Below are positions 15,191-32,913 of a stretch of DNA of 64,000 nt, piece by piece. Position numbers and translations under genes: made by a program. The notes beneath the pieces were generated by a model. It worked only from the letters and a program-made list of their open reading frames with translations, did not search any database and was not told where the DNA came from. The stretch is from Nitrosopumilus cobalaminigenes (GTDB taxonomy: Archaea > Thermoproteota > Nitrososphaeria > Nitrososphaerales > Nitrosopumilaceae): positions 744,001 through 808,000 of the forward strand of contig NZ_CP026993.1 in assembly GCF_013407145.1 (NCBI RefSeq), given 5' to 3'. Every line of letters begins with the position of its first letter. Position 1 is the first letter of the stretch.

Positions 15191-15886
15191 TCACATGCCT
15201 AGGAATTTGCTCAAAATTATGTCTCCGTAGAATAATTGTATGATAAATCCTCCTGTAATTAGTAGCAAATAGGGAATTCCAGGTGTTATCCATGTATTGG
15301 GGGTGGTACAAAATTCTTGATTTTCAGCATGGTGAATGGTAAGATCTAATCTCTTTTTCCCATTTTCTTTTTTTTCTATTGCAAAACAAAACTTTGGATT
15401 TTTTGCTTTATATCCCATTAATGAGGCAACAATTTTTTTGAATTTACTTTCATCAAACCCGTCAAAAATATTTTCACCTCTTGTTTGTGCAATAATGTTT
15501 CTTGAGATATTAATTATAAATGGAATTACAAATAATATTGCTGCATTAGATAATGTAGTAAATGGAGATACTGGAGATTCACTAAGTGTAGCCATTGGTG
15601 CAATTACTGCTAATGCAATTAGTGCAAAAGCATCTGCACCACCAAACAGTCCTATTCTCCACACTAAAATTACAAATGGTGCTACAATTAACGCAAATCC
15701 CATTTTCAGTAAATCTGAATAAATGTCTTGACTCATAAATACAAGTAATAACCCTGTTACTCCAAATCCAACCCAATAATAATCATGGATTTCTCTTTTC
15801 CATATATCAATTATTGAACCCGCAATCAACATTATAGTTGCCAATACAATTCCTAATGTGCTATAATCCAGTAACTCTTCAATCAT
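15191..15886 (-). CDS. Archaeal prepilin/preflagellin peptidase (A24 family)
   Basis: A 231-residue membrane aspartic protease. The two catalytic aspartates are visible: Asp27 in SIIDIWKREI and Asp85 in the GGAD motif (FGGADAFAL). Multiple hydrophobic helices surround them and there is a large cytoplasmic loop of about 80 residues near 130-200. It would cut class III signal peptides of the prepilins encoded at 21.7-29.8 kb. It is the last gene of the minus-strand pilus cluster. Whether it equals PibD or FlaK cannot be told. Confidence 0.87.
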   Translation of the reverse strand: MIEELLDYSTLGIVLATIMLIAGSIIDIWKREIHDYYWVGFGVTGLLLVFMSQDIYSDLLKMGFALIVAPFVILVWRIGLFGGADAFALIALAVIAPMATLSESPVSPFTTLSNAAILFVIPFIINISRNIIAQTRGENIFDGFDESKFKKIVASLMGYKAKNPKFCFAIEKKENGKKRLDLTIHHAENQEFCTTPNTWITPGIPYLLLITGGFIIQLFYGDIILSKFLGM

Positions 15887-15968: not shown

Positions 15969-18554
15969 TCATCGATTCCTAATATCTGAAACTCTTTCTT
16001 TAATCTCTTCAATTTTCTCTCCAAATGAAATTCTATCTGTTATTATGTCTAGTTTATCCATTTTCTTTAACATTACCAATGAACCTCCAACGGCAATTGG
16101 GATTATGATCATGATGATGGTATTCATGTCTATGGGTAATCCAAATCCTTGCTCTTCTGGTACGTTTTCTACAACTTCATCTATTGGAATGTTTTGAATT
16201 TGCGCTGTTTTTGACAATGTAGATGAACTTAGTCCATTTCCTGAAACAATTGCTGAAATTGTGATTGTTTCTTGATCATTAGCCATGACATTCATGATTG
16301 CAACCCCGTTAGAATCTGTAGTTTCATCAAATTGTAGTACTTCTCCTCCTTGAACTTCCCATTCCACATTAAACCCATCTAGTGCTGTTTCAATTTCAGG
16401 TATGCTGACGGATAATTTTCCTTCAAGTCTTTCATTCCAATTCATCCCCCCAAGAAGATCCAATGCTAGAACTGGAGTGATATCTATTACTTCGATATCG
16501 TATTTTGTTAAAGCCATATCTTCGGAAAGTATTGCCAGCTCAATTTCCCCTTCATCAAATGAATTAATATCAAACATGGCAAAATATTCTCCACTTTTAA
16601 TTGTCAATTCTTGTGGAATTTGAATAATGTTTTCATTATTTGATACCAATTTAATTATTACATCATTTTTTGCGTATACTGGATTTTTGGCTGAATCTAA
16701 TAGTTGAATGGTTGCTAATGTGTTCGAATTTGCTAAAATTATTTTTGGAAATGACAAATGTATGTCTGATGGATCAGTAGTATGACTTATGATATTGGTT
16801 GTACCTGAAAATCCCCCTAACTGGTATGGCAATGAAGTTGTTCCAACTTTATTTGACAGCATGTTCAAAATTGCATAATCTTGATTCTTCTTAATTGTGA
16901 CATGATCTGTCTCGATAAAATCATTTGCTGAAAATGTTAAAACTGAATCCTCAATAAACGGTGTCACTCCAAGTCGTGGATCTGCTTCTGCATCTTCATC
17001 CTCCCCAGTAATAACAACGCCATCTTCACTATTTTCGCTTTCTAGCATATATGCAATAACTGGAAACTCTTTTTCTGCTAAAATCATTGGCAACAATGGT
17101 TCAACAGTCAACCCTAGGTCTTCTTCAATGGGTCCTATGGGGTTTCCTGTCACCGTCTTTATTCCTTCATTATCTGTGATTGAAAAAATTGTGTCTCCTT
17201 CTGACATCAATGGTCCTGTTTCACCAAATACTAGTACTACGTTATCTGATTTTTTCATAATTGGGTTAATTGGATTTACAACATCTATTTCAGATGAGGA
17301 AAATGTAATACTGTGATTTTCTTTTGCTGTTACTGGAACAGTCACAGTAATCAACTCTCTACTTTGTGAACCTCCAATATTTCCACCCACTTGTCTGGCT
17401 ACTTCAATATCTGTTTCATAATATGTAACAGCTATTATCTCATTTTTACCTGTTGTCAAAAATGGCAATACTTTGGTAATTGATGGTCCATCTCCTTCTA
17501 AAGATCCAATTTGATCATGTGCTATGGTAATTGAATTTTCACTAGTCAAATAATTCTCAACTGAAACAAATATGTTAAAAGTCTGTACTAGTTCTTCCGT
17601 TGAATCTCCTAAATTTAGTCTTGGAGTAAATTCTGTAAATGCAGAATAACTCCCTTTTTCAATAACTAATTCTTTCTGTGCAAAATTTATTTCTTCAAAA
17701 TCATGACTTGTATTGATAGAAACATCTGGGTTTTCTACAGTTAAACTAAAATGAATATCTTCTTCAGATAGAACAGGAATACCTTCACCATCTACTAATT
17801 GAACTATTGCAAATCCTTTTGTTCCACTGTAACTATTATAATTCTCCGGAAAAGTATATAGCTTAAGCGTAAGAGGTTTTTCGGCTTCAAGAATATTTAC
17901 TACACTACTAATTTTTTTCATATTTTCTGTTTCTGCAAATATGATGGCATCTCCCGTACCAATTATTTCAAATTCTGTAATTGCATAGTATTCTCCTTCA
18001 GATATAACTAGTTCAGAATCTTTTATTTTTATAATTTCATTGTGAGGTGTATCTAATTGAACTACAATGTCTTCAGATGTAACCGTTGGAATTCCTCCTG
18101 TTGTTGCAATTTCTATTACAATATGTCCATATTTTGGTCCATCGATTGGAAATACGTTGGGTGTAATCTTCATTAACATTTGAGTAGGATAATTATTATT
18201 GTTAAACACTTCTAGACTAATTTCTTTTGATGAAAAACCTTCAGCTGCTAATGCTATGCTAGTTATCCCCGGATTATTTGCTTTTAATAAAATATTTTTT
18301 GTATATTTATCACTCCCATCTTTGATTTCCAAAATCTCTATGATTGAATTATCTGAACTAATTGCCTTAAGATTTGTAATCTGTTTTGGCACCATCATTT
18401 CATTTGATGTTACAAAAACTTGTAGTGTCCCCTCTGTATTTTCTAGTAATTTTTCAGGATGAAGTTGATATCCAAATTCTGAAGTTGTTTGAGCTTGAAC
18501 TGGAATTATGAACATGCCTAAAATTAGTCCTAGGATGAGTAGTATTCCCTTCAT
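15969..18554 (-). CDS. Large secreted Ig-like surface protein, C-terminally anchored
   Basis: An 861-residue protein with a signal peptide (residues 1-21, ending VQAQ), a long beta-rich extracellular part made of roughly eight repeating segments with patterns like 'P-V-L-S-E-E-D-I-…-L' and 'E-G-…-Y-A-…-F', and one membrane helix near the C-terminus (IIMIIIPIAVGGSLVMLKK) followed by a charged tail. The segments look like bacterial Ig/invasin-type domains. It lies 82 bases before the prepilin peptidase and 63 bases after FlaJ, so it is probably a membrane-bound partner or scaffold of the pilus. Confidence 0.68.
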   Translation of the reverse strand: MKGILLILGLILGMFIIPVQAQTTSEFGYQLHPEKLLENTEGTLQVFVTSNEMMVPKQITNLKAISSDNSIIEILEIKDGSDKYTKNILLKANNPGITSIALAAEGFSSKEISLEVFNNNNYPTQMLMKITPNVFPIDGPKYGHIVIEIATTGGIPTVTSEDIVVQLDTPHNEIIKIKDSELVISEGEYYAITEFEIIGTGDAIIFAETENMKKISSVVNILEAEKPLTLKLYTFPENYNSYSGTKGFAIVQLVDGEGIPVLSEEDIHFSLTVENPDVSINTSHDFEEINFAQKELVIEKGSYSAFTEFTPRLNLGDSTEELVQTFNIFVSVENYLTSENSITIAHDQIGSLEGDGPSITKVLPFLTTGKNEIIAVTYYETDIEVARQVGGNIGGSQSRELITVTVPVTAKENHSITFSSSEIDVVNPINPIMKKSDNVVLVFGETGPLMSEGDTIFSITDNEGIKTVTGNPIGPIEEDLGLTVEPLLPMILAEKEFPVIAYMLESENSEDGVVITGEDEDAEADPRLGVTPFIEDSVLTFSANDFIETDHVTIKKNQDYAILNMLSNKVGTTSLPYQLGGFSGTTNIISHTTDPSDIHLSFPKIILANSNTLATIQLLDSAKNPVYAKNDVIIKLVSNNENIIQIPQELTIKSGEYFAMFDINSFDEGEIELAILSEDMALTKYDIEVIDITPVLALDLLGGMNWNERLEGKLSVSIPEIETALDGFNVEWEVQGGEVLQFDETTDSNGVAIMNVMANDQETITISAIVSGNGLSSSTLSKTAQIQNIPIDEVVENVPEEQGFGLPIDMNTIIMIIIPIAVGGSLVMLKKMDKLDIITDRISFGEKIEEIKERVSDIRNR

Positions 18555-18617: not shown

Positions 18618-20063
18618 TTATCCAAAAATAGCGGAAACACTGAATATTTTCATTTGAATAATCACTATTGCCCCTATGGATATGCCTACTAAAAATATTG
18701 AATACATAAAACCACCCGAATACGAACCTGTGGTAATTTTACCTAAAAATAATCCTGATATCCATGATTGGACTAAAATTGCGATTCCTAATAATTCAAA
18801 TCTTGATTTTGATTCTAATTCTAACGCTGCTCTTTTTACTTCATTTTCTTCTAATTGAGATCCTAAACTTGTTATTGATTCAATTACTAACAAGGTGGTA
18901 AATCCCGTAATTGCAATAAGCATGAAACCTACCATTACATATGGTTTTAATTTTTCTCGTTTCTCTTTTTCAATATTATGCATTTTTTCTGCAACTCCTG
19001 CAAGTGTATTCAAGGTATTTACATTTCCTCCTCCTGCTGAAATTATTTCAAATAAAACTCTAAAGTTAATTAATATCTGGAAATCATTAACTTCTTTTTT
19101 AATAAATCCAAAAATATCTTCCAAAGTCATCCCCCATTCTAATTTATTTGCAACTCCGTTTGCTACTGGATTAAATAATCCGTAATCTTTTCTTTTGGTG
19201 GATCGAATTACACATTTTTCTGGACCTAATCCTGCTTTTCTTGCTTCAGCTACATCTCTCATAATTTGAGTTGCTCCTGATTGTGCATCTAGTGAAAATT
19301 GATATTTATTTTTAAATTTTAACGCTGGCCAAATTGCTGACACAATTAAAGCTGCTCCTAGAATATACAAATTATAATCCGGCAACAAGCTCATTGGATT
19401 TAATGCAGCAGCAACAATAATTCCTGGAATTCCAAACATTAGAATTTTTTTCCAATCTAATTCACTAACTTTTGATTTGTTTAGCTTGTGAGCTATTACT
19501 AAAAATAATGCAGATACAGCTGGGGGCATTATGATAACCAGATACAATGGATCAATGTCATTAGGACCTGGAGTAGAACCTACTCCATCAGTGGATGTTG
19601 CTGTTATGATGATGTAAACTGCCAACACCACAACTTGCATTGTCATATATGTCTCAATTACAGTTTCAACTTTTTTTGCCAATTCTGATTGTTGTGATTC
19701 ATAGAGCTCAAAAGCTGAATTCATTTTTGTCGTAAGATAATTTACCACATCTCCCCCACTTTGAATTGCGGATACCCATCCATTCAAAAAATCTCCAAAA
19801 TTAGATCCTCTTTCATTTGTTTCAGTCATGACTATGAGGGGATCTTTTCCTAACAAATCAATTCTTTTTAAAATCCTCATTGATTCTAATCTCACATTGG
19901 GTAAAAGTTCCATATCTTTAATTTTTAAAAATATGGTATATGGACCAAATCCACTTGTAGCTAACAGGGTTACAATTGTGATGAAAAAAGGCAATTCTGC
20001 CTGAATTTTCTTATTTTGCTTTTTCTTCTTGTCTGCCTCTTCGTGTTTTTTTATGAAAGACAT
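18618..20063 (-). CDS. Type IV pilus/archaellum platform protein (FlaJ/T2SSF family)
   Basis: A 481-residue membrane protein with two T2SSF modules, seen as two related stretches containing LPFFITIVTLLATSGF near residue 25 and a second module beginning near GATQIMRDVAEARKAGLGPE around 265. Six or more membrane helices are visible. It would be the inner-membrane platform of the pilus or archaellum motor. It abuts the ATPase gene (two bases apart), which in all such systems supplies its energy. Confidence 0.9.
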   Translation of the reverse strand: MSFIKKHEEADKKKKQNKKIQAELPFFITIVTLLATSGFGPYTIFLKIKDMELLPNVRLESMRILKRIDLLGKDPLIVMTETNERGSNFGDFLNGWVSAIQSGGDVVNYLTTKMNSAFELYESQQSELAKKVETVIETYMTMQVVVLAVYIIITATSTDGVGSTPGPNDIDPLYLVIIMPPAVSALFLVIAHKLNKSKVSELDWKKILMFGIPGIIVAAALNPMSLLPDYNLYILGAALIVSAIWPALKFKNKYQFSLDAQSGATQIMRDVAEARKAGLGPEKCVIRSTKRKDYGLFNPVANGVANKLEWGMTLEDIFGFIKKEVNDFQILINFRVLFEIISAGGGNVNTLNTLAGVAEKMHNIEKEKREKLKPYVMVGFMLIAITGFTTLLVIESITSLGSQLEENEVKRAALELESKSRFELLGIAILVQSWISGLFLGKITTGSYSGGFMYSIFLVGISIGAIVIIQMKIFSVSAIFG

Positions 20064-20065
20064 GA

Positions 20066-21601
20066 TTATACACCGTACTCTATTTTTTTCATCACTTTTT
20101 CTGGATCTCTATAATATTTTCCAATAAATTCTGCAACTTTATCATATGCTCTAACTCCCGTTTGAACTAAATATTTTAAAATAATTTTTCTTTTTTCATA
20201 TTCTTCTAAAATTTCATCCATGCTTTTTCCAGTTTGAGTTGAAATTCTTTCCAACATTTCACTATTTTCTAGTTGTGGAAGGAAATAATCTGTTTTTGGA
20301 TCCCATTTGAAAGCATTATGATATGAATCTGATGTTTTAATTTCTTGAACTGAAATTGCTCTTCTGGTACTCTTTCCATCTTGCCCTTTTACTCTTCTAA
20401 TCACTATGGCACAGTTCATCAATGCCATATATGCAGGAGGTATGTCCATTGGTTTTTGTTGCAATCTTTTACTTGCTGATTCTAGACTGTCTGCGTGCAT
20501 CGTACATAATCCTCCGTGTCCTGTAGCCATTGCTTGAAACATTACATATGCTTCAGATCCTCTAATTTCTCCTACTACGATATAATCTGGTCTATGTCTA
20601 ACTCCTGATTTAATCAAATCATATAACCCAATTTCTCCTTCCCCACTATTTCCAAATCCTACCCTTGATACAAGACTAAACCAGTTTTGATGTTTGATGT
20701 TGATTTCAGCAACATCTTCCACCGAAAATATTTTGTAATCTGGATTAACTAAACCTGTGATTGCATTAAGAATTGTTGTTTTTCCACTTCCTGTAGAACC
20801 AATCACCATGATGGACATCTTGGATTCCATTAACATCCAAAGATATGCTGCAATTTCTACACTAATTGTATCAAATGAAATTAAATCAATTACTGAATAT
20901 GGATCTTTCTTAAACTTTCTAATTGTAAAACTAGTTCCTTTTGGTGTGATTTCTTTTTGATAAAGAACTGATATTCTGTGATTTCCTTGCAATGCTAAAT
21001 CTGAAATTGGATGTGCAGAACTGATATGTTTTCCTGCTCTAAAGACAATTCTGGATACAAATGAATTTAATTTTTCATCTTCAAATGTAATATTACAAGG
21101 AATACTATCATATTTTCTATGCCATACATAAATTGGTGTTAATATTCCACTACAACTCACATCTTCTATGTTGGGATCATTCATTACAGGATCAATATTT
21201 CCAAATCCATCGATATCTCTTTCAAGATAATACTTTACTTTTTCAATACTAGCAAGGGGTTGCTCTTGAAATAATTTCTCATTTTCTTTAAGAATTTTAT
21301 TAACAAAGGACATAAATCCAAAATCCTTTTCAATGTTTTCTGGAGAATCTAGATTTTCCTCAATTAGTCTGTATAACTGATTATACACAATCTCTTCAGA
21401 TGGGTTTAGTTTTGTTTCGTCAACTTGGTAGGATATACTTCCTGTATCTAGGTCTTGAATAATGTTGGCATAACTAAATGGAGCTTTTAAGGGATATTTT
21501 TCTAGTACTTTAGAACCTTTGGGAGTTTCATTGTTTAATTCACTTAAGAATTCACTTTTTAGGAATGTCTCCAATCCTTGTTCTTCTTTCTTTTTACCCA
21601 T
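20066..21601 (-). CDS. Type IV pilus/archaellum secretion ATPase (FlaI/T2SSE family)
   Basis: About 511 residues from the ATG at 21601 (a second start lies nine bases upstream). The ATPase core has Walker A GSTGSGKTT (about residue 268), an Asp box around IFSVEDVAEINIKHQNW, and the Walker B region DYIVVGEIRGSEA followed by a His box TGHGGLCTMHADS. The N-terminal domain is the T2SSE-type. It drives pilus assembly or rotation with the platform encoded downstream. Confidence 0.92.
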   Translation of the reverse strand: MGKKKEEQGLETFLKSEFLSELNNETPKGSKVLEKYPLKAPFSYANIIQDLDTGSISYQVDETKLNPSEEIVYNQLYRLIEENLDSPENIEKDFGFMSFVNKILKENEKLFQEQPLASIEKVKYYLERDIDGFGNIDPVMNDPNIEDVSCSGILTPIYVWHRKYDSIPCNITFEDEKLNSFVSRIVFRAGKHISSAHPISDLALQGNHRISVLYQKEITPKGTSFTIRKFKKDPYSVIDLISFDTISVEIAAYLWMLMESKMSIMVIGSTGSGKTTILNAITGLVNPDYKIFSVEDVAEINIKHQNWFSLVSRVGFGNSGEGEIGLYDLIKSGVRHRPDYIVVGEIRGSEAYVMFQAMATGHGGLCTMHADSLESASKRLQQKPMDIPPAYMALMNCAIVIRRVKGQDGKSTRRAISVQEIKTSDSYHNAFKWDPKTDYFLPQLENSEMLERISTQTGKSMDEILEEYEKRKIILKYLVQTGVRAYDKVAEFIGKYYRDPEKVMKKIEYGV

Positions 21602-21723
21602 AATGATCAATTGTTATGGATGATTTTTTGTTATATTGAACAGTATGAAATATTCTAATACATACAAAGTAGTCTAGAATAAAATTAAAAATAGTTACAG
21701 GATAATTAAATAAAAAAATTCTA

Positions 21724-22359
21724 TTATCCTGTATTTGTTACACCTGATACGGTTACACTTTGTGGTGCGCCTGCTTTGCCTGCAAATATGTTAACTGTAG
21801 TTTGTGCACCAGAGTCTAATGATGTAAGTGTACCATTAGTTAACTTGAAGTATATTACTCCTGATTCTCCAGGTGACAATCCAATAGGTCCTGTTGCGGC
21901 ATTAGCACAGATTGATGATGCATCTGTTTTTTCAGAACTCAAGCCAATTTCTACTGTACTTGATGTTGTACATGTTGTATCATCTACAAGGTTACCTGCA
22001 GTACCAGACCATCCAGTGAAGTTTAATGCAAGTTGGAATGTGGTTGCATTAATTGAAGTATCTGCATACCATTGTGAAAATGGTACATCTGATCCTCTAA
22101 CTGAGATCTTGTCTACTGACAAAACTTTGTCTCCTGTGTTTCTTATTTTTGCTGCGCCCCAAGCTAAACCGTCTGATGCAGTACCATGTACCCACATTTT
22201 TACACCTGATACGGAAATTGCTTCTGATTGCGTACCGCCTTGGAAAAGACTGGTACCATACAAAACAACACCTGAACCAAGTACAACTGATGACACCAAG
22301 ATGATGACAGTTGTGAGCACTGTACTGATTGCACGTTTTTTGCTTAGTTTGGTTTTCAT
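21724..22359 (-). CDS. Major prepilin/archaellin-like protein, copy 2
   Basis: A 211-residue protein with a class III signal peptide: basic LSKKR, then a hydrophobic core AISTVLTTVIILVSSVV expected to become the N-terminus of the mature subunit, then a beta-rich head domain. Two Cys residues (in TTCTT and SICAN) could form a disulfide. It differs from copy 1 (22522-23157) at only about 11 of 211 positions, mostly within residues 88-110 and near 190. The peptidase, ATPase and platform genes follow on the same strand. Whether it forms an archaellum or an adhesion pilus is open. Confidence 0.87.
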   Translation of the reverse strand: MKTKLSKKRAISTVLTTVIILVSSVVLGSGVVLYGTSLFQGGTQSEAISVSGVKMWVHGTASDGLAWGAAKIRNTGDKVLSVDKISVRGSDVPFSQWYADTSINATTFQLALNFTGWSGTAGNLVDDTTCTTSSTVEIGLSSEKTDASSICANAATGPIGLSPGESGVIYFKLTNGTLTSLDSGAQTTVNIFAGKAGAPQSVTVSGVTNTG

Positions 22360-22521: not shown

Positions 22522-23157
22522 TTATCCTGTATTTGTTACACCTGATACGGTTACACTTTGTGGTGCGCCTGCTTTGCCTGCAAATATGTTGATGGTTATG
22601 TTTGAACCTGAATCTAATGATGTGATTGTACCATTAGTTAACTTGAAGTATATTACTCCTGATTCTCCAGGTGACAATCCAATAGGTCCTGTTGCGGCAT
22701 TAGCACAGATTGATGATGCATCTGTTTTTTCAGAACTCAAGCCAATTTCTACTGTACTTGATGTTGTACATGTTGTATCATCTACAAGGTTACCTGCAGT
22801 ACCAGACCATCCAGTGAAGTTTAATGCAAGTTGGAATGTGGTTGCATTAACTGAAGTATCTGCATACCATTGTGAAAATGGTATTTCTGATCCTCTGACA
22901 TCTATTTTGTCTATTGACAAAACTTTGTCTCCTGTGTTTCTTATTTTTGCTGCGCCCCAAGCTAAACCGTCTGATGCAGTACCATGTACCCACATTTTTA
23001 CACCTGATACGGAAATTGCTTCTGTTTGCGTACCGCCTTGGAAAAGACTGGTACCATACAAAACAACACCTGAACCAAGTACAACTGATGACACCAAGAT
23101 GATGACAGTTGTGAGCACTGTACTGATTGCACGTTTTTTGCTTAGTTTGGTTTTCAT
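22522..23157 (-). CDS. Major prepilin/archaellin-like protein, copy 1
   Basis: A 211-residue prepilin nearly identical to the downstream copy, including identical ends (SKKRAIST at the start, APQSVTVSGVTNTG at the end). It has its own promoter (TATA near 23187) and probably leads the transcript. The conservation of most synonymous sites with copy 2 points to gene conversion or recent duplication. Hydrophobic helix at about residues 11-32 would build the filament core. Confidence 0.87.
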   Translation of the reverse strand: MKTKLSKKRAISTVLTTVIILVSSVVLGSGVVLYGTSLFQGGTQTEAISVSGVKMWVHGTASDGLAWGAAKIRNTGDKVLSIDKIDVRGSEIPFSQWYADTSVNATTFQLALNFTGWSGTAGNLVDDTTCTTSSTVEIGLSSEKTDASSICANAATGPIGLSPGESGVIYFKLTNGTITSLDSGSNITINIFAGKAGAPQSVTVSGVTNTG

Positions 23158-23268: not shown

Positions 23269-24840
23269 TCACAGATCATCTCCTGCAAGCATTGTATATG
23301 CGCCCAGGAATCTTGCAACTGTTTTTCTTAATCCCTCATAAGGCATACACATTGAAAAAATCTTTGTTACTCCTGTAGGCATTCCGATTGCCACCACACT
23401 GATTCCTTTTTTCCTAGCTGCTTCTACTGCCTCTTCCATTTTTTTATCTGCTTCATACGTTCCTAATGCTTGACCATCTGTAATCAAAAAGATGTATCTT
23501 CTCTCAATGTTTTCTCTTTCTAAAATTCTAGAACAAAGCTTTACTGCATCTGCAATAAATGAGAATCCTTTGATTTCAATTCCTCCGATTCGAGACTTTG
23601 AATTTGCATCAAAATTCTCATAGTGATCTTTTACAATTGTAAAATTATTGTTAAAGGTAAAAAATCCCCATTTTCCGTTCTTTGAATTAACTTCATTTGC
23701 AGCTTCTCCTAAACAAATGGCAAATTTTTTCATTTCATCAAATTTTAGCCTCATACTACTGCTTGTATCTACCACAATTGCCCATTCTTCCTCAATCCTT
23801 CTATAATCGTCTTGTTCAAAAATCTGAATACTGTTGTTTTGAGCCGCAACTGCTTGAATGGCAGCTTGCATTTGTAATAATCCCATATCCTCAGGCATTC
23901 CTTCATCCATAACATTTGGAGTCATTTTCATTTGTGATGACATTTTCTTCAAAAACAAGTGGGTTGCATTTTTCAGTCTAAGGTACTCTCCAATATTCTC
24001 TGGAGCAAAATCTATTTTATCAAATTCTAAATCATCTGTAATTCCACCGTATTTTTTTCTGACTTTGGCTCGGCGTTTTAGTTGTTCAAACCAAACATCA
24101 TTGAATCTTTCAACGATACTCAGAAACTTTCCCTCTGTTGACAAATTGATATTTTCAATCCATTTCTCAATTCTTTTTGGATGACTATAGTGATCAGTAA
24201 ATGGCAATCTAAAATCCGATATTATGTTTGATGATTCATAAACCTCATCTGCAATTTTAATAAACTCTTCATCCTCTTCAGAATTTAGATTCAAAATCTT
24301 TTCTTGCAATTGCTCTCTTTTGATTTTAATGTCTGAAACAAATCTATTTGAAAATACTTTTTTTGAATTTTTTTTGACATTTTCTAAATTTTTTTTTTCA
24401 TAAATATTTGTAAAATATTCTTGAATTTTATTAATTTCTGTATGATACTCTGAGAATTCTTTTTTCAAAAATTCATTGACTCGTATATCTTCAATAAATT
24501 CAAATGTTTCATATGCACGTTTTTTGTTTTTATTTACCATCCATTTTTTATATTTTTTAAAATCCGTGACTTTGGCATGACCTGCTGCATGACACACTGA
24601 TGATAAAAATAATGAAAAAATTGTAGATTGATAAGTTTCTAAATTTGAAAAGGCACACCCTTGTATAGTTTCTAATCCTTGAATTGCCCTTGGCATTGGA
24701 AAAAATACAGTCATTCTTGGTTCATAATCAATTTTTGGGAAATACTGTTGTTCTAAAAAAAACATGTCTATATCAATTGGTTTTTTTCCACAAATCTCAA
24801 AGAATAATTCATGTGCAATCTGTTGCACTGTTTCTTTCAT
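23269..24840 (-). CDS. VWA-domain protein paired with a MoxR ATPase (CbbO/NorD-like)
   Basis: A 523-residue soluble protein with a long helical, charged N-terminal half and a C-terminal von Willebrand A domain whose MIDAS motif is VDTSSSMRLKF near residue 362, followed by LITDGQALG. Such proteins work with a MoxR/CbbQ-type ATPase as metal-dependent chaperones or activators of a target complex. The partner ATPase gene abuts it directly (one shared border at 24840/24841). The target is unknown; the pilus genes alongside are a possible but unproven client. Confidence 0.83.
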   Translation of the reverse strand: MKETVQQIAHELFFEICGKKPIDIDMFFLEQQYFPKIDYEPRMTVFFPMPRAIQGLETIQGCAFSNLETYQSTIFSLFLSSVCHAAGHAKVTDFKKYKKWMVNKNKKRAYETFEFIEDIRVNEFLKKEFSEYHTEINKIQEYFTNIYEKKNLENVKKNSKKVFSNRFVSDIKIKREQLQEKILNLNSEEDEEFIKIADEVYESSNIISDFRLPFTDHYSHPKRIEKWIENINLSTEGKFLSIVERFNDVWFEQLKRRAKVRKKYGGITDDLEFDKIDFAPENIGEYLRLKNATHLFLKKMSSQMKMTPNVMDEGMPEDMGLLQMQAAIQAVAAQNNSIQIFEQDDYRRIEEEWAIVVDTSSSMRLKFDEMKKFAICLGEAANEVNSKNGKWGFFTFNNNFTIVKDHYENFDANSKSRIGGIEIKGFSFIADAVKLCSRILERENIERRYIFLITDGQALGTYEADKKMEEAVEAARKKGISVVAIGMPTGVTKIFSMCMPYEGLRKTVARFLGAYTMLAGDDL

Positions 24841-25869
24841 CTAGTTTACACCTTTTTTTTTAGCAGCAGCTTGACTTTCAAGAACTTTTTTTACGATGTG
24901 CCTTACTTCATCTTGCACTTCTGGATCATCACTGGTCATTGGAATTAGTGTTTCATTTCCACCATCCATTATGGACATACCATCAGAACAAATCTTTGCC
25001 CAGTTAACCAAATCCCCTACAGATGGACCATAAGGTAAATCCCCCATCTTGTATTCTTGTCTTAGTTTGGCCCCTACTTTTACAATACTTTCTGCATCAA
25101 CCATTGGGATGCCTCCTTTCTTTGAAACCATGCTGATTTCTTTTTCATCAATATTGTCCCCAACACTCATGTAGTCAAAGTTTAACCATACACTCATTCT
25201 TCTCCTCATTGCTGCATTGATTGGTTTAGTACCTGCGAATTCTGATGAAACAGGGTTCATACTAATTATCATGTAAGCGTGTTTATGTCTATGAATAATC
25301 TCACTATCTTTTTCAGTTAATACCATATGACCTCTTTGATCCAGCAATGGGTTGAGTTTTGTAGCAACATCTTGCTTCATCATGTTTGCTTCGTCCAGAT
25401 ATAGAATTCCTCCTTTTCTACACCATCCTGTAATCAAACCATCAATCCAATTTTCTTTTCCCAATCCAACATAACGTCCAAACAAATCAAAAACAGATGT
25501 TGCCAAACCACAGTTAATTTCCCACATTGGCAACCCTGCTAGTTCTGCTACAAGGTACACGATGTGAGTTTTTCCAGTTCCACTGGGACCAATTAATGCA
25601 CATTGTTTGAAAAATTTTAGAGCCCTCCCAATTCTTTCAACATAATGCTCACCATTGTCCAAATAGGGTGGTGTGTCTTTTGGAATCATCTCATCCATTT
25701 CTTCAGGGAAATTCATGTCAGATGAATCCATGTATTTTTTAAAATCATACATTTTTGATAATTCATGGGTATTTTTTTTGATTTTTGAGATTGAAACTGA
25801 AAGGTTTACTTTATCTGAATTAATTCTTGAGCGATTTGTTGATGAAATAAGTTGTTTATTGGTTTCCAA
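24841..25869 (-). CDS. MoxR/CbbQ-type AAA+ ATPase
   Basis: A 342-residue AAA+ ATPase with Walker A GPSGTGKTH near residue 95, Walker B ILYLDEANMM near 155, sensor 1 in MIISMNP and arginine finger region AAMRRRMSV. These are MoxR/CbbQ features. It starts with TTG at 25869 and is probably co-transcribed with the VWA gene, whose start follows its stop without a gap. It would remodel a protein complex chosen by the VWA partner. Confidence 0.88.
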   Translation of the reverse strand: METNKQLISSTNRSRINSDKVNLSVSISKIKKNTHELSKMYDFKKYMDSSDMNFPEEMDEMIPKDTPPYLDNGEHYVERIGRALKFFKQCALIGPSGTGKTHIVYLVAELAGLPMWEINCGLATSVFDLFGRYVGLGKENWIDGLITGWCRKGGILYLDEANMMKQDVATKLNPLLDQRGHMVLTEKDSEIIHRHKHAYMIISMNPVSSEFAGTKPINAAMRRRMSVWLNFDYMSVGDNIDEKEISMVSKKGGIPMVDAESIVKVGAKLRQEYKMGDLPYGPSVGDLVNWAKICSDGMSIMDGGNETLIPMTSDDPEVQDEVRHIVKKVLESQAAAKKKGVN

Positions 25870-25968
25870 CGGTGCTAATTTTACATTCAGATATAGTTAA
25901 TGCTGTTATGTGTGTGTAGATGTTACATACACCTTCTAATAGATAGATTTACTACTATTTTCTTTAAG

Positions 25969-26496
25969 ATGAATGCACAAGTTGAGTTAACTTCTATAGC
26001 TATGAGTAAAAATGATCCTAAAATTACAAAATTGGACAAATATGATGTAGAGGCCAATATTGAAGAAGTTGATAACAGTGAGGACCAATCTGTTTTCAAA
26101 TATGGATTTACTGCGTTATCTAATCCAAAAAATGTGCGTTTAGCAATTGAAGGTATTGCTAGAATTACAGGAGATTCTGTTGAACGAAATGAAATTTTAG
26201 AAAAAGACGAAAATAACGTTCCAAAAATTCTCACTATGATATATCATGAACTTTTTCCTACATTCTTTGTACTTTCAAAAAATTTGAATGTCTCATCTCC
26301 TCCACATACAATTGGCGAGATGGGTGATTCACCTGTTGAAACTGATGATGTTTTAGAAACAGAATCATCTGAAACACAATCTGCTGATAATTTACCTGAA
26401 GAACTTTTGGAATCTAATTCTGAAGCATCTTCTGAAGTAACTGAATCTCCTACTGATTCTATAGAGAATCCAGACATTGCCCAGCCTGGTGTGTAA
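25969..26496 (+). CDS. Acidic soluble protein of unknown function beside the pilus genes
   Basis: About 175 residues from the ATG at 25969; the open frame runs on upstream to 25900 but the earlier part has unlikely, Cys-rich composition. The first 90 residues look folded and helical (YGFTALSNPKNVRLAIEGIAR region), the last 70 are a low-complexity acidic Ser/Glu/Asp tail. No signal peptide. It is divergent from the MoxR gene and 47 bases before a prepilin-like gene. I do not recognise it. Confidence 0.6.
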   Translation: MNAQVELTSIAMSKNDPKITKLDKYDVEANIEEVDNSEDQSVFKYGFTALSNPKNVRLAIEGIARITGDSVERNEILEKDENNVPKILTMIYHELFPTFFVLSKNLNVSSPPHTIGEMGDSPVETDDVLETESSETQSADNLPEELLESNSEASSEVTESPTDSIENPDIAQPGV

Positions 26497-26543: not shown

Positions 26544-27044
26544 ATGACATTGCAATATAGAACAAATAGACATCCCCATTTTCGAAATCGTAGAGGTATT
26601 GCACAAGTTGTAACTAGTGCAATAATTTTATCTTCAGTTAGTATTATGGGTGTGATGATGTTGGGGTGGTCTCAGACCAATATTGCTACACAACAACAAG
26701 AAATGGATGATGTGTTTAACACTCAAATGAATAAAATTAATGAAGATTTGATTTTTGAAAATATTTGGTTTGCAACCCCTGCAGGTGAAATGACTGAAAA
26801 CCATCTTAATGTGACAGTTGCAAATATTGGAGTTTTAGGATTAAACATTACATCTATTCAGGTCACAAATACTACTGGAACAAATACTACTGCATTTGGA
26901 TATACATACACTGATGCTGGAGTTGTTACGGGCGATTCTATTTCTCTAAACACTACATATCCTTGGCAATCATCTGATGAACTTGATGTGAGAATATTTA
27001 CAAATCGAGGAAACCAATTCCTTTCTCAGGTGGTTGCCCCATGA
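26544..27044 (+). CDS. Small prepilin-like protein (archaellar/pilus accessory)
   Basis: A 166-residue protein with a class III-type signal: basic NRRG, then hydrophobic IAQVVTSAIILSSVSIMGVMML, which would become the mature N-terminus. The rest is a beta-rich extracellular domain. The pattern resembles FlaF/FlaG or minor pilin proteins rather than a major subunit. It overlaps the next gene by four bases (ATGA), so both are made together. Confidence 0.75.
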   Translation: MTLQYRTNRHPHFRNRRGIAQVVTSAIILSSVSIMGVMMLGWSQTNIATQQQEMDDVFNTQMNKINEDLIFENIWFATPAGEMTENHLNVTVANIGVLGLNITSIQVTNTTGTNTTAFGYTYTDAGVVTGDSISLNTTYPWQSSDELDVRIFTNRGNQFLSQVVAP

Positions 27045-29788
27045 GTTCTCACCGAGGTTTAAGTGCTGTAGTTGGTACTGTATTTTTAGTCGCAGTGGTA
27101 ATTGGAGCACTATCTTATGTTTCGTATAGTTTGGATGTGATGGGAAATTTCTCTGAATCATTAATTGTTGAAGAATCAAGACAAAGGGACAAACAAGCAG
27201 AATCTTTTACAATAGAATCTATTGATGTTACTGATGCATCTAAACTAGGTGGAGTCATAAAAAATACTGGTGAAATCCCATTAGAATTAACAACTCTTTG
27301 GATTGATGAACAAGGAGTAAATGATGTTGTCCAAAAATTTACTTTAAATGAAGAAATAGCTCCTGGAGGTACAGTTGACATTTCTAGTTTGGTTGACTAT
27401 ACAATGGATTCTGCCAAAGGCTATAACATGAAAGTTGTATCATCTCGAGGTGAAGTAAATTCCTTCACAGTAAATTCTTTAGCAGACGAAAATGTGTACA
27501 TGAGTTTGACTGCTACTCCATCAGTTATCCCAAGTACGTTTACTTCTACACTTATCTATACTGTCGTAAATAATATGTCCAATGGAAATTATTTGTACAA
27601 TTTAACACCCGTAATGAACGATACAAAACAAACTCTTGATGTAAGCTCTTCTGGACTTACTTATGATATGCTTAATGGTGGTAAACCTACTCCAGAATCC
27701 TATGAATCATTAGGTCCGGGTGAAGTTGCTATTTTTACCTATGAAATTCAACTTACTGGTGAGACAGATGGGGATCTACAATTATTTAATGTAACTTTGG
27801 CAAATGCAAATGAAGGGAATGAAGCATTAGCTAGTGTAGGGATTAGCACAGTTCCATTAGCAACTGATGCTGGTTCTGCACTGACATCTTTGGGACTCAC
27901 TGAATCTGATTCAGACTTGACTGATGTTTTGTATTTTCATGAAGACACAACATTATCGCCAAATGGTGAATATACTATGGATGGTTCATCTCCAAATGCT
28001 GATGGCGAAACAGCATCTCCTAATGGAAATACCATGTCATTTATTTCAGCCCCTATGACTGCTGAAACAAATGTTCCAATTGGAGGATATAATGTAACTA
28101 TGACTTATTATTCTAGTATTGTTCCACTCGGTTTTCCTGAACCCTCATTTGCATTTATGATGGATTGTTTTGAGTGTGGAGATACTGGTGATAATGAAAT
28201 TGCAGACAGTATGGGTGCCTTTGGCAATCAAGGAATGGACTCTGGTGGCGGACATCCTGAATTTTTTGACACTGGAGGACCTGATGGGGATGGGTATTAT
28301 CATTTTGATGATGATGATGATGATTACTTTTGGGATGAGTGGGGGTTTGGAGGTTCAGCAGCCGATGTTGGTAACTATCCAGATGCTACTGCAATTTGGG
28401 TGAGAGTAGAAAGTGGTTCAGAGGATGATGTTTCGATTGTAGAGATGGGTGAATGGGATAATGAAATAGAACATTTAGAATATTATGGACTTTACCTTGC
28501 TGATGGATATGAGTTTAATTTTGGTATGGCATCTAGACACGGCCATCAGGGGTTAGAGAATCACGTCGAGTGTCAAACTCCAAATGAATCAGGAACTGAT
28601 ATTACATACAATGATGATCAATGGCATCACGTAGTTTTGGTAAGAGATGGTGTGCTCAGTTGCAAATTATATGTTGATGGTGTTCTAATGGATAGTGCTG
28701 TTGAATCAGGCTATGAGGATGATGACATAGAGTCTGATTTTATGTCATTTGGATACACACTGAGATATTGTAATGATGGAGATGAATATCCAGAAGATGA
28801 TGACTGTTATCCCGCAGGCGCTGATTTTGATGGAGATATTGCATCTGTAATACATTGGAATGGAGTAGATGGTGATCTTGATAGTATTCCATTTGCAGAA
28901 GCAGAGGGTGCTGCTGAAGTAGAGGATCTATTCTATACAAATTATGGAAATAATGCTACTAGGTTACACTATAAGATAGAGGTAATTGATACTGATGGAA
29001 CTCCTGTTGAACCTGAAATAATCCCATTAACAAAAATAGAACTACCTTTCAAAGACGTTGTACTGGGCAATTTTGATGATCAGGGAATCTGGATTGATGT
29101 TGATACAACTAATGGCACTGATCAAAAATATCATGGAGATGCTGATGATGACGATATAGTTTTCTTCTCTGCCAATCTGACTGCACATTCTACTAGTATT
29201 GCCAATTTACAAATAGGTGAGAGATTAAAAGTAACATTGGATTGGAATGGATTTGATGAACAAAATCTACCCATCAACATAATGTTTGATGATACAACTT
29301 TTATCGATGGAACTGGGTGGACTTTTCCTGATGGACCAACATTCCTACAAACTCCAGAACCTGATCCTAGATGGCCTACTTTTCTTAGCTTTGGTTCTCA
29401 AGACCCAGTAACATATCGTGCATTCAATGAAGGTCCTGAAGGAGTCTGGTTCACTTACGGTGGTACTAGGCTAGTTTTGACATCTTTAGATGGTTTAACG
29501 TCCTATGGGGCTACTCCACGCTATGTAAATGGCTCAGATGCGAGTGCAGAAATTGATGCATCACGAGATAGTCTGTATATTCCAGATCAATATTATGCTG
29601 AAATTACATTTTGGCCTATTCAAGCTCCTCCTGATGACAATGATTCAATTAATCCTTGTTCAGCTACATGTGAAGTTCCAAATGGTGACTATGATGCAGC
29701 ACTGTATTTACAAGGGTATGATGAGGCAGGAGAGACTTTCAAGAAAACAGTAAATCTGGGCTTGGTGCACATTTATGGTAATCCCTAA
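27041..29788 (+). CDS. Giant prepilin-like protein with LamG-like domain, candidate pilus tip adhesin
   Basis: A 915-residue protein. The N-terminus SSHRG followed by LSAVVGTVFLVAVVIGALSYVSY has the class III prepilin pattern. After a beta-rich region (50-330) there is a concanavalin/LamG-like domain at about 370-620, recognised by AIWVRVES, YNDDQWHHVVLVRDG and KLYVDGVLMDS. A Cys- and Asp/Glu-rich segment and a further beta domain complete the protein. LamG folds bind sugars or proteins. So the protein may sit at the fibre tip and bind surfaces or other cells. Confidence 0.72.
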   Translation: MSSHRGLSAVVGTVFLVAVVIGALSYVSYSLDVMGNFSESLIVEESRQRDKQAESFTIESIDVTDASKLGGVIKNTGEIPLELTTLWIDEQGVNDVVQKFTLNEEIAPGGTVDISSLVDYTMDSAKGYNMKVVSSRGEVNSFTVNSLADENVYMSLTATPSVIPSTFTSTLIYTVVNNMSNGNYLYNLTPVMNDTKQTLDVSSSGLTYDMLNGGKPTPESYESLGPGEVAIFTYEIQLTGETDGDLQLFNVTLANANEGNEALASVGISTVPLATDAGSALTSLGLTESDSDLTDVLYFHEDTTLSPNGEYTMDGSSPNADGETASPNGNTMSFISAPMTAETNVPIGGYNVTMTYYSSIVPLGFPEPSFAFMMDCFECGDTGDNEIADSMGAFGNQGMDSGGGHPEFFDTGGPDGDGYYHFDDDDDDYFWDEWGFGGSAADVGNYPDATAIWVRVESGSEDDVSIVEMGEWDNEIEHLEYYGLYLADGYEFNFGMASRHGHQGLENHVECQTPNESGTDITYNDDQWHHVVLVRDGVLSCKLYVDGVLMDSAVESGYEDDDIESDFMSFGYTLRYCNDGDEYPEDDDCYPAGADFDGDIASVIHWNGVDGDLDSIPFAEAEGAAEVEDLFYTNYGNNATRLHYKIEVIDTDGTPVEPEIIPLTKIELPFKDVVLGNFDDQGIWIDVDTTNGTDQKYHGDADDDDIVFFSANLTAHSTSIANLQIGERLKVTLDWNGFDEQNLPINIMFDDTTFIDGTGWTFPDGPTFLQTPEPDPRWPTFLSFGSQDPVTYRAFNEGPEGVWFTYGGTRLVLTSLDGLTSYGATPRYVNGSDASAEIDASRDSLYIPDQYYAEITFWPIQAPPDDNDSINPCSATCEVPNGDYDAALYLQGYDEAGETFKKTVNLGLVHIYGNP

Positions 29789-29863: not shown

Positions 29864-30409
29864 TTGCAATCTGCAGAATCTACTGATAATGCCGCAGCTC
29901 CAGAACAACAAGCAGCTCCAGAACAACAAGCAGCTCCAGAACAAGTCTCAGTGGATCCTAATGATGTCAATGCAAAAACTTTGACTCAGCTAAACACTCT
30001 GATGGAAGAATCTTTACAAATTTATGAACTTGAAGATCAAAAAACAAACGTAATTGATGATTTACATAATGCGTTACAAGTAATCACCCAATTTTTGTCA
30101 TTTTCCACCGATGTCAACCCTGTAATTTTCAACCTTCCTCAAGATGCAACTGTTACAATGTTGCCAAATTTGAAATTAGTAATTAAATTAGTAAATGGTA
30201 AAACAGAGACAAAAAAATTCACGGATTATCCTCCTGAGGTTATCACCGCAATTGTAGAATATGTTACTCCTCAATTATTAGAGTTGATTCAGAAACAAAA
30301 ATCATACTTGACTGAGAAAATTACTTTCTTACGAACTGCTACTAAACAACTTAGTACATTGTCTCAACTCAAAGAAAATTTGCCATCTATTGTCCCTATG
30401 GATGAATAA
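29864..30409 (+). CDS. Soluble charged protein with N-terminal AAPEQQ repeats
   Basis: A 181-residue protein from a TTG start, without signal peptide or membrane helix. Residues 9-30 contain three AAPEQ(Q) copies encoded by 18-base repeats. The rest is mostly helical with hydrophobic heptads (LTQLNTLMEESLQIYELED; LLELIQKQKSYLTEKITFLR), suggesting coiled-coil packing. Three bases separate it from the next gene. Unknown function; likely cytoplasmic partner of the surface system. Confidence 0.65.
   Translation: MQSAESTDNAAAPEQQAAPEQQAAPEQVSVDPNDVNAKTLTQLNTLMEESLQIYELEDQKTNVIDDLHNALQVITQFLSFSTDVNPVIFNLPQDATVTMLPNLKLVIKLVNGKTETKKFTDYPPEVITAIVEYVTPQLLELIQKQKSYLTEKITFLRTATKQLSTLSQLKENLPSIVPMDE
29894..29946 (+). 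repeat. Three 18-bp in-frame tandem repeats
   Basis: Units GCAGCTCCAGAACAACAA at 29894 and 29912, with a third partial copy at 29930-29946, encode AAPEQQ. The length divides by three, so copy-number changes keep the frame. Confidence 0.8.
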
Positions 30410-30411
30410 TC

Positions 30412-31113
30412 TTGAAAAGCCTAATAGAGCGATTTAACTCAGTTAATTCACTCAAAGTTAATTTAGAAAAAGAAATTGAAGATACTGAATTCCAAATTCA
30501 AGAATATTCTAATTTACTGGGTGAAAAAATAAGAATCAATGAAGAAATGTCTTCTGATGATCCTGATTTTCTTGCGTTAAAAGCAAAATTTGATGGAGAT
30601 GTGCCTGGTAAGAAATCTGATGATAAGAAAGCTGATGATAAGAAAGCTGATGATAAGAAAGCTGATGATAAGAAAGCTGATGATAAGAAAGCTGATGATA
30701 AGAAAGCTGATGATAAGAAAGCTGATGATAAGAAAGCTGATGATAAGAAAGCTAAAGCAAAATTTGAAAAAAAGAAGAAAGGAAAGAAAGGTGTTAGCGA
30801 TAAATGGTATAATCTAAATGAAATCCTAATTTATAATGGAATTGGTTTGAAAGGTGAAATGGAATTGTACTTTAAAGCCGTAGATGAATTAAAATCTAAA
30901 CTTGAAAATCTTCAAAGAACACTATCGACACTAACTACAGTAATGGAAAAAGGGCTAAAGGAAGATATGGGATGTGTGGCTTTTAGAGGATCCGATGGGA
31001 CCTTGGAAATCTCTTTCTTAAAATCAACAGGTGTTAGAGAAAATTTTACATTAAAATCGATCTATTCTGGAAAGGCAATTTCAGTACAAAATATGATAAA
31101 AATAGGTGCATAG
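30412..31113 (+). CDS. Coiled-coil protein with variable Lys/Asp repeat linker
   Basis: A 233-residue protein from a TTG start. Residues 1-60 form an amphipathic helix region, then a KSDDK/KADDK linker of nine five-residue units, a basic KFEKKKKGKKG patch, and a second helical part with heptads (ELYFKAVDELKSKLENLQR). The C-terminus looks globular. No secretion signal. The perfect tandem repeats probably change number between strains. It is coupled to the preceding charged protein and likely acts with it. Confidence 0.65.
   Translation: MKSLIERFNSVNSLKVNLEKEIEDTEFQIQEYSNLLGEKIRINEEMSSDDPDFLALKAKFDGDVPGKKSDDKKADDKKADDKKADDKKADDKKADDKKADDKKADDKKADDKKAKAKFEKKKKGKKGVSDKWYNLNEILIYNGIGLKGEMELYFKAVDELKSKLENLQRTLSTLTTVMEKGLKEDMGCVAFRGSDGTLEISFLKSTGVRENFTLKSIYSGKAISVQNMIKIGA
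30616..30750 (+). repeat. Nine 15-bp in-frame tandem repeats, eight identical
   Basis: The unit GCTGATGATAAGAAA occurs eight times without a single mismatch, preceded by one copy that begins TCT. It encodes KADDK repeats in the linker of the gene at 30412-31113. Perfect identity suggests recent expansion by slippage. Confidence 0.95.
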
Positions 31114-32175: not shown

Positions 32176-32913
32176 ATGGATTCTACATATTCTAAAGTGA
32201 AAACGGGAATACCTGGATTAGACTCTGTAATTTCTGGAGGACTAAAACCTGGAAGATCTGTGACTGTTTCAGGTCCTCCTGGAAGTGGGAAGACTACTTT
32301 GGGATTACAATATCTTCATTCTGGTGCTAAAGACTTTGATGAACCTGGTATCTATGTTACAATGTCTCAAAATATTGAAGAAGTAAAAAATGATTGTAAA
32401 TCATATGGTTGGGATTTTGATGATTTAATCTCACAAGATAAAATTTTGATGATTGATGCTAGACCATTTAAAATTCAAGATGAATTGATTGGGAAAGATG
32501 ATTCATTATACCGAGGAGAACAATTACCTTTTGAGCATTTGACTAAATTATTACTTAGTAGCATTAAACGCATTGAAGCAAAACGTGTTGTAATTGATTC
32601 AGTTACGATATTGGCTATGCAGTATTCGGACAAGTTTTACATGAGACAGGGATTGCAAGGAATGGTTCAGGCTCTAGAAAATTTTGGAGTAACAAGTATT
32701 GTTCTGTCAGAGTATTCTGAAAATGATAAAATTCCATTAGAGTGGTTTGTCACTTCAGGCATTATTCAACTTCGCCATACTAGAATAGAAGATACTATGG
32801 AGAGAACTATTCAAGTTACTAAAATGCGTGGAATAAAACACAGTGAACAAATTCACCCAATTGATCTAAATTCAGATGGGTTACAGTTGCTCCATCCTAG
32901 ATTGATGCCGTGA
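32176..32913 (+). CDS. KaiC/RecA-like ATPase, possibly pilus-related
   Basis: A 245-residue single-domain KaiC-family ATPase: GIPGLDSVISGGL, Walker A GPPGSGKTT at 33-41, Walker B VVIDSVTIL near 140. FlaH of archaella is also a KaiC relative, but the sequence is closer to general KaiC-like signalling proteins, so I do not call it FlaH. Position next to the second TrmB and the pilus locus makes a regulatory or motor role plausible. Confidence 0.8.
   Translation: MDSTYSKVKTGIPGLDSVISGGLKPGRSVTVSGPPGSGKTTLGLQYLHSGAKDFDEPGIYVTMSQNIEEVKNDCKSYGWDFDDLISQDKILMIDARPFKIQDELIGKDDSLYRGEQLPFEHLTKLLLSSIKRIEAKRVVIDSVTILAMQYSDKFYMRQGLQGMVQALENFGVTSIVLSEYSENDKIPLEWFVTSGIIQLRHTRIEDTMERTIQVTKMRGIKHSEQIHPIDLNSDGLQLLHPRLMP

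Follow-up and report, generated by a model that had tools for sequence, protein, structure and literature searches.

P915, a 915-residue protein encoded in the window (the whole 64,000-nucleotide stretch of Nitrosopumilus cobalaminigenes DNA analysed here), is probably an archaeal modular type IV pilin. It would belong to the pilus of its own locus, work with a dedicated small partner pilin, and bind a surface ligand at the pilus tip through a LamG head. Few cells in the sea are as abundant as those of ammonia-oxidising archaea, and their attachment to particles, hosts and each other is poorly known; P915 and its partner represent a concrete candidate adhesin for these organisms. The host genome is a single contig of 1.56 Mb, 99% complete, and the named relatives in the genome scan belong to Nitrosopumilus, Nitrosarchaeum and related MAGs. 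Coordinates are given in Table 1.

Table 1. Features of the P915 locus and domains of P915 (positions in the window)
Feature	Position	Strand	Basis
Prepilin peptidase	15191-15886	-	Peptidase_A24 and Arc_PepC_II, both over cut-off
Ig-like surface protein, 861 aa, C-terminal membrane anchor (anchor by eye)	15969-18554	-	Domain search
Pilus platform protein (T2SSF; ArlJ/UpsF-like)	18618-20063	-	Domain search
Pilus assembly ATPase (ArlI/PilB family)	20066-21610	-	Domain search
Type IV pilin, tandem copy 1, candidate major pilin	21724-22359	-	Class III motif
Type IV pilin, tandem copy 2	22522-23157	-	Class III motif
Putative VWA-type protein, from the VWA/MoxR pair linked to thaumarchaeal T4P	23269-24840	-	Sequence and neighbourhood
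Putative MoxR/GvpN-type ATPase	24841-25869	-	Sequence and neighbourhood
Syntenic locus protein	25900-26496	+	Synteny
Partner minor prepilin, 166 aa	26544-27044	+	4-nt overlap with P915; motif, fold, pairing
P915, modular prepilin, 915 aa	27041-29788	+	ORF list, domain searches, AF2
P915 residues 1-6: class III leader, predicted cleavage between G6 and L7	27041-27058	+	Motif and conservation
P915 residues 7-145: pilin module, long N-terminal helix (6-53) and beta-sandwich head	27059-27475	+	AF2, profile
P915 residues 146-270: second beta-sandwich, within conserved chassis	27476-27850	+	AF2, relatives
P915 residues 271-361: low-confidence linker and few strands, from chassis to LamG	27851-28123	+	AF2, alignment
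P915 residues ~362-641: concanavalin-A-like/LamG domain	28124-28963	+	Pfam, profile, fold
P915 residues ~642-915: C-terminal beta region, common to LamG-bearing members	28964-29785	+	Alignment, AF2
Syntenic locus protein without signal, probably cytoplasmic	29864-30409	+	Synteny
Syntenic locus protein, KADDK-type repeat, probably cytoplasmic	30412-31113	+	Synteny
KaiC-family ATPase	32176-32913	+	Domain search

Domain architecture of P915

The P915 reading frame opens with an ATG that shares four nucleotides (ATGA) with the stop of the preceding ORF, and this start position is supported by the alignment, in which relatives begin at the same residue. At the N-terminus R5 and G6 precede L7 and an uncharged hydrophobic stretch of 20 residues. 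The 72 ORFs of at least 100 aa in the window were scanned for this arrangement (K or R, then G or A, the cut, a hydrophobic residue and an uncharged hydrophobic stretch of 20 residues), and four contained it: P915, its upstream partner and the two tandem pilins. Within the family alignment R5, G6, L7, S8, G12 and F15 are conserved. The class III signal-like N-terminus proposed in the first-pass annotation is thus supported by motif and conservation, and the check for an ordinary Sec signal peptide came out as pilin, by motif and profile alone. On these grounds P915 is a pilin rather than a protein secreted by the ordinary Sec route, with cleavage predicted. In the predicted mature form, position 5 is occupied by Val, where bacterial pilins have a conserved Glu (Glu5).

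A family profile built on the first 270 residues matches the type IV pilus subunit of Pyrobaculum calidifontis (8FK7) over profile positions 3–140 (E 6.4e-9). The UpsA model was touched by 19 of the 20 family members; in P915 the match extends over residues 5–143 and scores 29 bits, far under the cut-off of 130. In the AF2 model of P915 a single helix leads into a beta-sandwich. The assignment of the pilin module rests on the profiles and on the predicted fold of the partner (see below). P915 thus combines a predicted class III signal and uncharged hydrophobic helix with a pilin module homologous to assembled pilins and, C-terminal to that module, an extra domain that is not pilus-specific, as in a modular type IV pilin.

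This extra domain matches PF13385 (Laminin_G_3) with 36.2 bits (E 8e-9), above the curated cut-off of 27.6, as a member of the Laminin_G_3/ConA-like superfamily, and the same Pfam model is matched by 14 of the 20 family members. The family profile retrieves a neurexin LamG domain (E 2e-15); a PDB search with the single P915 sequence gave chance matches only. In the AF2 model, residues ~362–641 are predicted to fold as a concanavalin-like jelly roll, for which the fold search returned many ConA-like domains at Z 16–17, for example that of 5HP6 (Z 16.5, rmsd 2.8 Å, 183 residues). Confidence of the P915 model is moderate (pLDDT 65.5, pTM 0.48), and the relative arrangement of the domains is therefore not fixed by it. 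The LamG-like stretch YNDDQWHHVVLVRDG is located at residues 523–537. C511 and C541 are invariant among the ten members aligned over the LamG region. Both ends of the earlier description, a 915-residue prepilin-like protein and a LamG-like region in its large beta-rich body, are therefore borne out by motif, Pfam, profile and fold, and the concanavalin-like fold put forward as a check was found in the predicted structure.

Receptor-binding domains of clostridial neurotoxins are among the top matches of the LamG part in the fold search. A toxin reading was rejected: what is shared is the ConA-like fold, occurring also in an arabinanase and in neurexin, the identities are 8–17%, and no toxin sign was seen. 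The LamG region is extremely acidic, with a net charge of −62 over 280 residues (362–641) and an FDDDDDDYF run, the chassis being far less so. Besides P915, Laminin_G_3 was found in just one protein of the genome (L116:604-2760, at ~53.1–55.3 kb; 70.8 bits), which looks secreted and has no pilin start. Relatives of P915 were not found in the viral collection searched.

The pilus locus and the partner pilin

The type IV pilus locus that encodes P915 is complete and not of the archaellum kind; it has a peptidase, a platform protein, an ATPase and two pilins (Table 1). The tandem pilins are 95% identical in amino acids and 96% in nucleotides over the coding part and, judged by these values, are a recent duplication or the result of gene conversion. 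The true start of the syntenic protein upstream of the partner is probably at 25969, its homologues beginning at residue 24, MNAQVELTSIAMS. The protein at 30412-31113 contains about ten KADDK-type repeats in its middle; its flanks align across species and the repeat part varies in length. The KaiC-family ATPase is not ArlH (25.7 bits, cut-off 215).

Across the genus, an ArlI-family ATPase was detected in 20 of the 22 genomes positive for the P915 family as against 8 of the 68 negative ones (Fisher 1e-11, phylogeny ignored), two family-positive genomes having no detectable ATPase. All nine genus genomes with the ATPase type of the window (at least 81% identity) also contain the module, and in seven of these the protein belongs to the LamG-region type. 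The genome that harbours P915 has a second T4P locus (L051, 665000-684999) with an ATPase ~40% identical to that of the window, two short genes of platform-protein type and, at 594 aa, a P915 relative that gives no LamG match.

The model of the partner shows a pilin fold, with 8FK7 as the best PDB match (Z 12.2, rmsd 2.5 Å, 132 residues), ahead of FlaF and FlaG (Z 9.8–10.0). A small-pilin homologue of ~150 aa is found directly upstream of nearly all long P915 homologues with visible upstream room, within ~50 nt and often with a 4-nt overlap. Motif, pilin fold, gene overlap and this pairing in relatives together uphold the first-pass suggestion of a small, co-translated prepilin-like partner. 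The same pairing exists in other families of the phylum, where the large proteins have 394–1239 aa; P915 had been called unusual in size for a pilin, a view that does not hold, large size being normal here. Exceptions are the second pilus locus of the genome and its counterparts, in which the small pilin is ~690–780 nt away, leaving room for one gene, and L030 and L031, whose short proteins of a single domain are without a small pilin. Orphan pairs located away from any ATPase also exist and must therefore use pilus machinery encoded elsewhere. In one relative (G063; L038/L067) an orphan copy of the large pilin is broken by stop codons.

Divergence of the pair between related genomes

At the same locus in the relative G035, ArlI, MoxR, TrmB and KaiC are 89%, 93%, 97% and 95% identical to the proteins of the window, whereas identity is merely 28% for the P915 pilin module and 46% for the partner. 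In G077 and G069 (L045, L049) the pair is inverted relative to its neighbours, as compared with the window and G011, and the large proteins have 551–553 aa and no LamG match. Some members contain ~200 residues inserted within the LamG region, and these inserts are not all alike. Against its counterparts in the closest relatives, P915 shows 84% and 80% identity in the pilin module and 40% and 36% in the LamG domain; orphan LamG copies are without such an imbalance, with 65–79% throughout in two pairs.

From these discordant identities we read the pair as behaving like a cassette, replaced by divergent alleles and changing fast in its distal part; related species appear to exchange the adhesive part. 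More speculative, and on balance doubtful, is the idea that the pair serves marine ammonia-oxidising archaea as an exchangeable recognition cassette: with the chassis and the remaining pilus locus kept, lectin heads would be replaced in place from one lineage to another and would set which cells or surfaces are recognised (kin or partner recognition, compare Ups pili). In-place replacement makes specificity testable through species comparison.

Proposed mode of action and relation to known systems

The P915 leader would be cut by the peptidase of the locus, and its helix and head would be packed into a pilus that the ATPase and the platform protein encoded there assemble, with the co-translated small pilin as dedicated partner of P915. 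Owing to its bulk, the C-terminal part with the LamG domain should sterically favour the tip, where the LamG head may bind a ligand on a surface; a glycan of another cell, of a particle or of the S-layer is the most likely candidate. A role as tip adhesin best fits the anatomy of P915 and its closest characterised analogue, PilA/PilC of Streptococcus sanguinis; this pair being the closest worked example, the presumed mode of working is fairly clear.

The resemblance of the partner to FlaF and FlaG raises another explanation, in which the pair is a stator or S-layer anchor of archaellum type (ArlF/ArlG-like) at the filament base and LamG ties the machine to the cell's own surface. The ArlF model was indeed touched by 4 of the 20 P915 relatives (best E 1.7e-4), but 8FK7 outscores both proteins as a match for the partner. 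Furthermore, the 99%-complete genome has no clear ArlH (best 37 bits) and a search for CheW in it found none, whereas elsewhere in the genus ArlH is present at 169–182 bits beside a different ATPase, and G033 carries both systems. The locus is therefore that of a pilus; its membership in the archaellum was rejected, and a stator function of the pair is very improbable.

Many LamG and ConA-like domains are structural and do not bind sugars. The head of P915, very acidic as it is, might accordingly be a structural or self-association module of a pilus subunit that serves cell-cell bundling. We consider this unlikely, since LamG changes fast relative to the chassis, which is more typical of a ligand-facing part. 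Comparably slim are the chances that P915 is a membrane-held surface lectin (a pseudopilus or base component) never built into a filament; the orphan pairs away from pilus operons would agree with this, as would the fact that assembly of so large a subunit is deduced, but P915 is closely tied to a pilus locus and its ATPase, and known modular pilins with bulky heads have been modelled at the tip (PMC8179133, PMC9934059). A ligand-binding modular pilin thus remains the preferred reading of P915.

In S. sanguinis, PilC consists of pilin, Ig and ConA lectin modules and, with its small partner PilA, makes up a glycan-binding pair modelled at the tip; its lectin module binds glycans and PilA stabilises PilC (PMC9934059). 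P915 is similar in having a small pilin partner and in being a large modular pilin with Ig-like and ConA-like lectin modules. It differs in being archaeal, with a pilin head of the UpsA/8FK7 type, where PilC is bacterial and has Glu5, and in its body, which is larger and has an additional beta region at the C-terminus; a lectin function is suggested for it by likeness. Because its mature residue 5 is Val, P915 is an analogue and not an orthologue of PilC, and a 'modular pilin' in the general sense (PMC8179133).

A strong link between a VWA/GvpN-MoxR pair and the subclade 4A type of T4P locus in thaumarchaea has been reported, and an unnamed 'S-layer protein or adhesin' has been predicted in thaumarchaeal loci (Makarova 2016, PMC4858521). 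The present locus, with its putative VWA/MoxR pair, is of the same kind. The main text of that study makes no mention of LamG or concanavalin, and the two-gene cassette and its variation described here go beyond it. The Ups pilins of Sulfolobales carry species-specific recognition regions (PMC7064770); P915 is akin to UpsA/UpsB in its UpsA-model match, although UpsA is a short pilin without LamG.

In the literature searched, mostly outside subscription journals, we found no archaeal LamG-bearing pilin, nor one that combines this domain with a dedicated partner and a variable, replaceable head. Already known are bacterial modular pilins with PF13385, from a survey based on the IPR012902 motif and presented as bacterial (PMC8179133). 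P915 has this domain likewise grafted C-terminal of the pilin, which suggests that the design of grafting a lectin onto a pilin has been reached by both bacteria and archaea.
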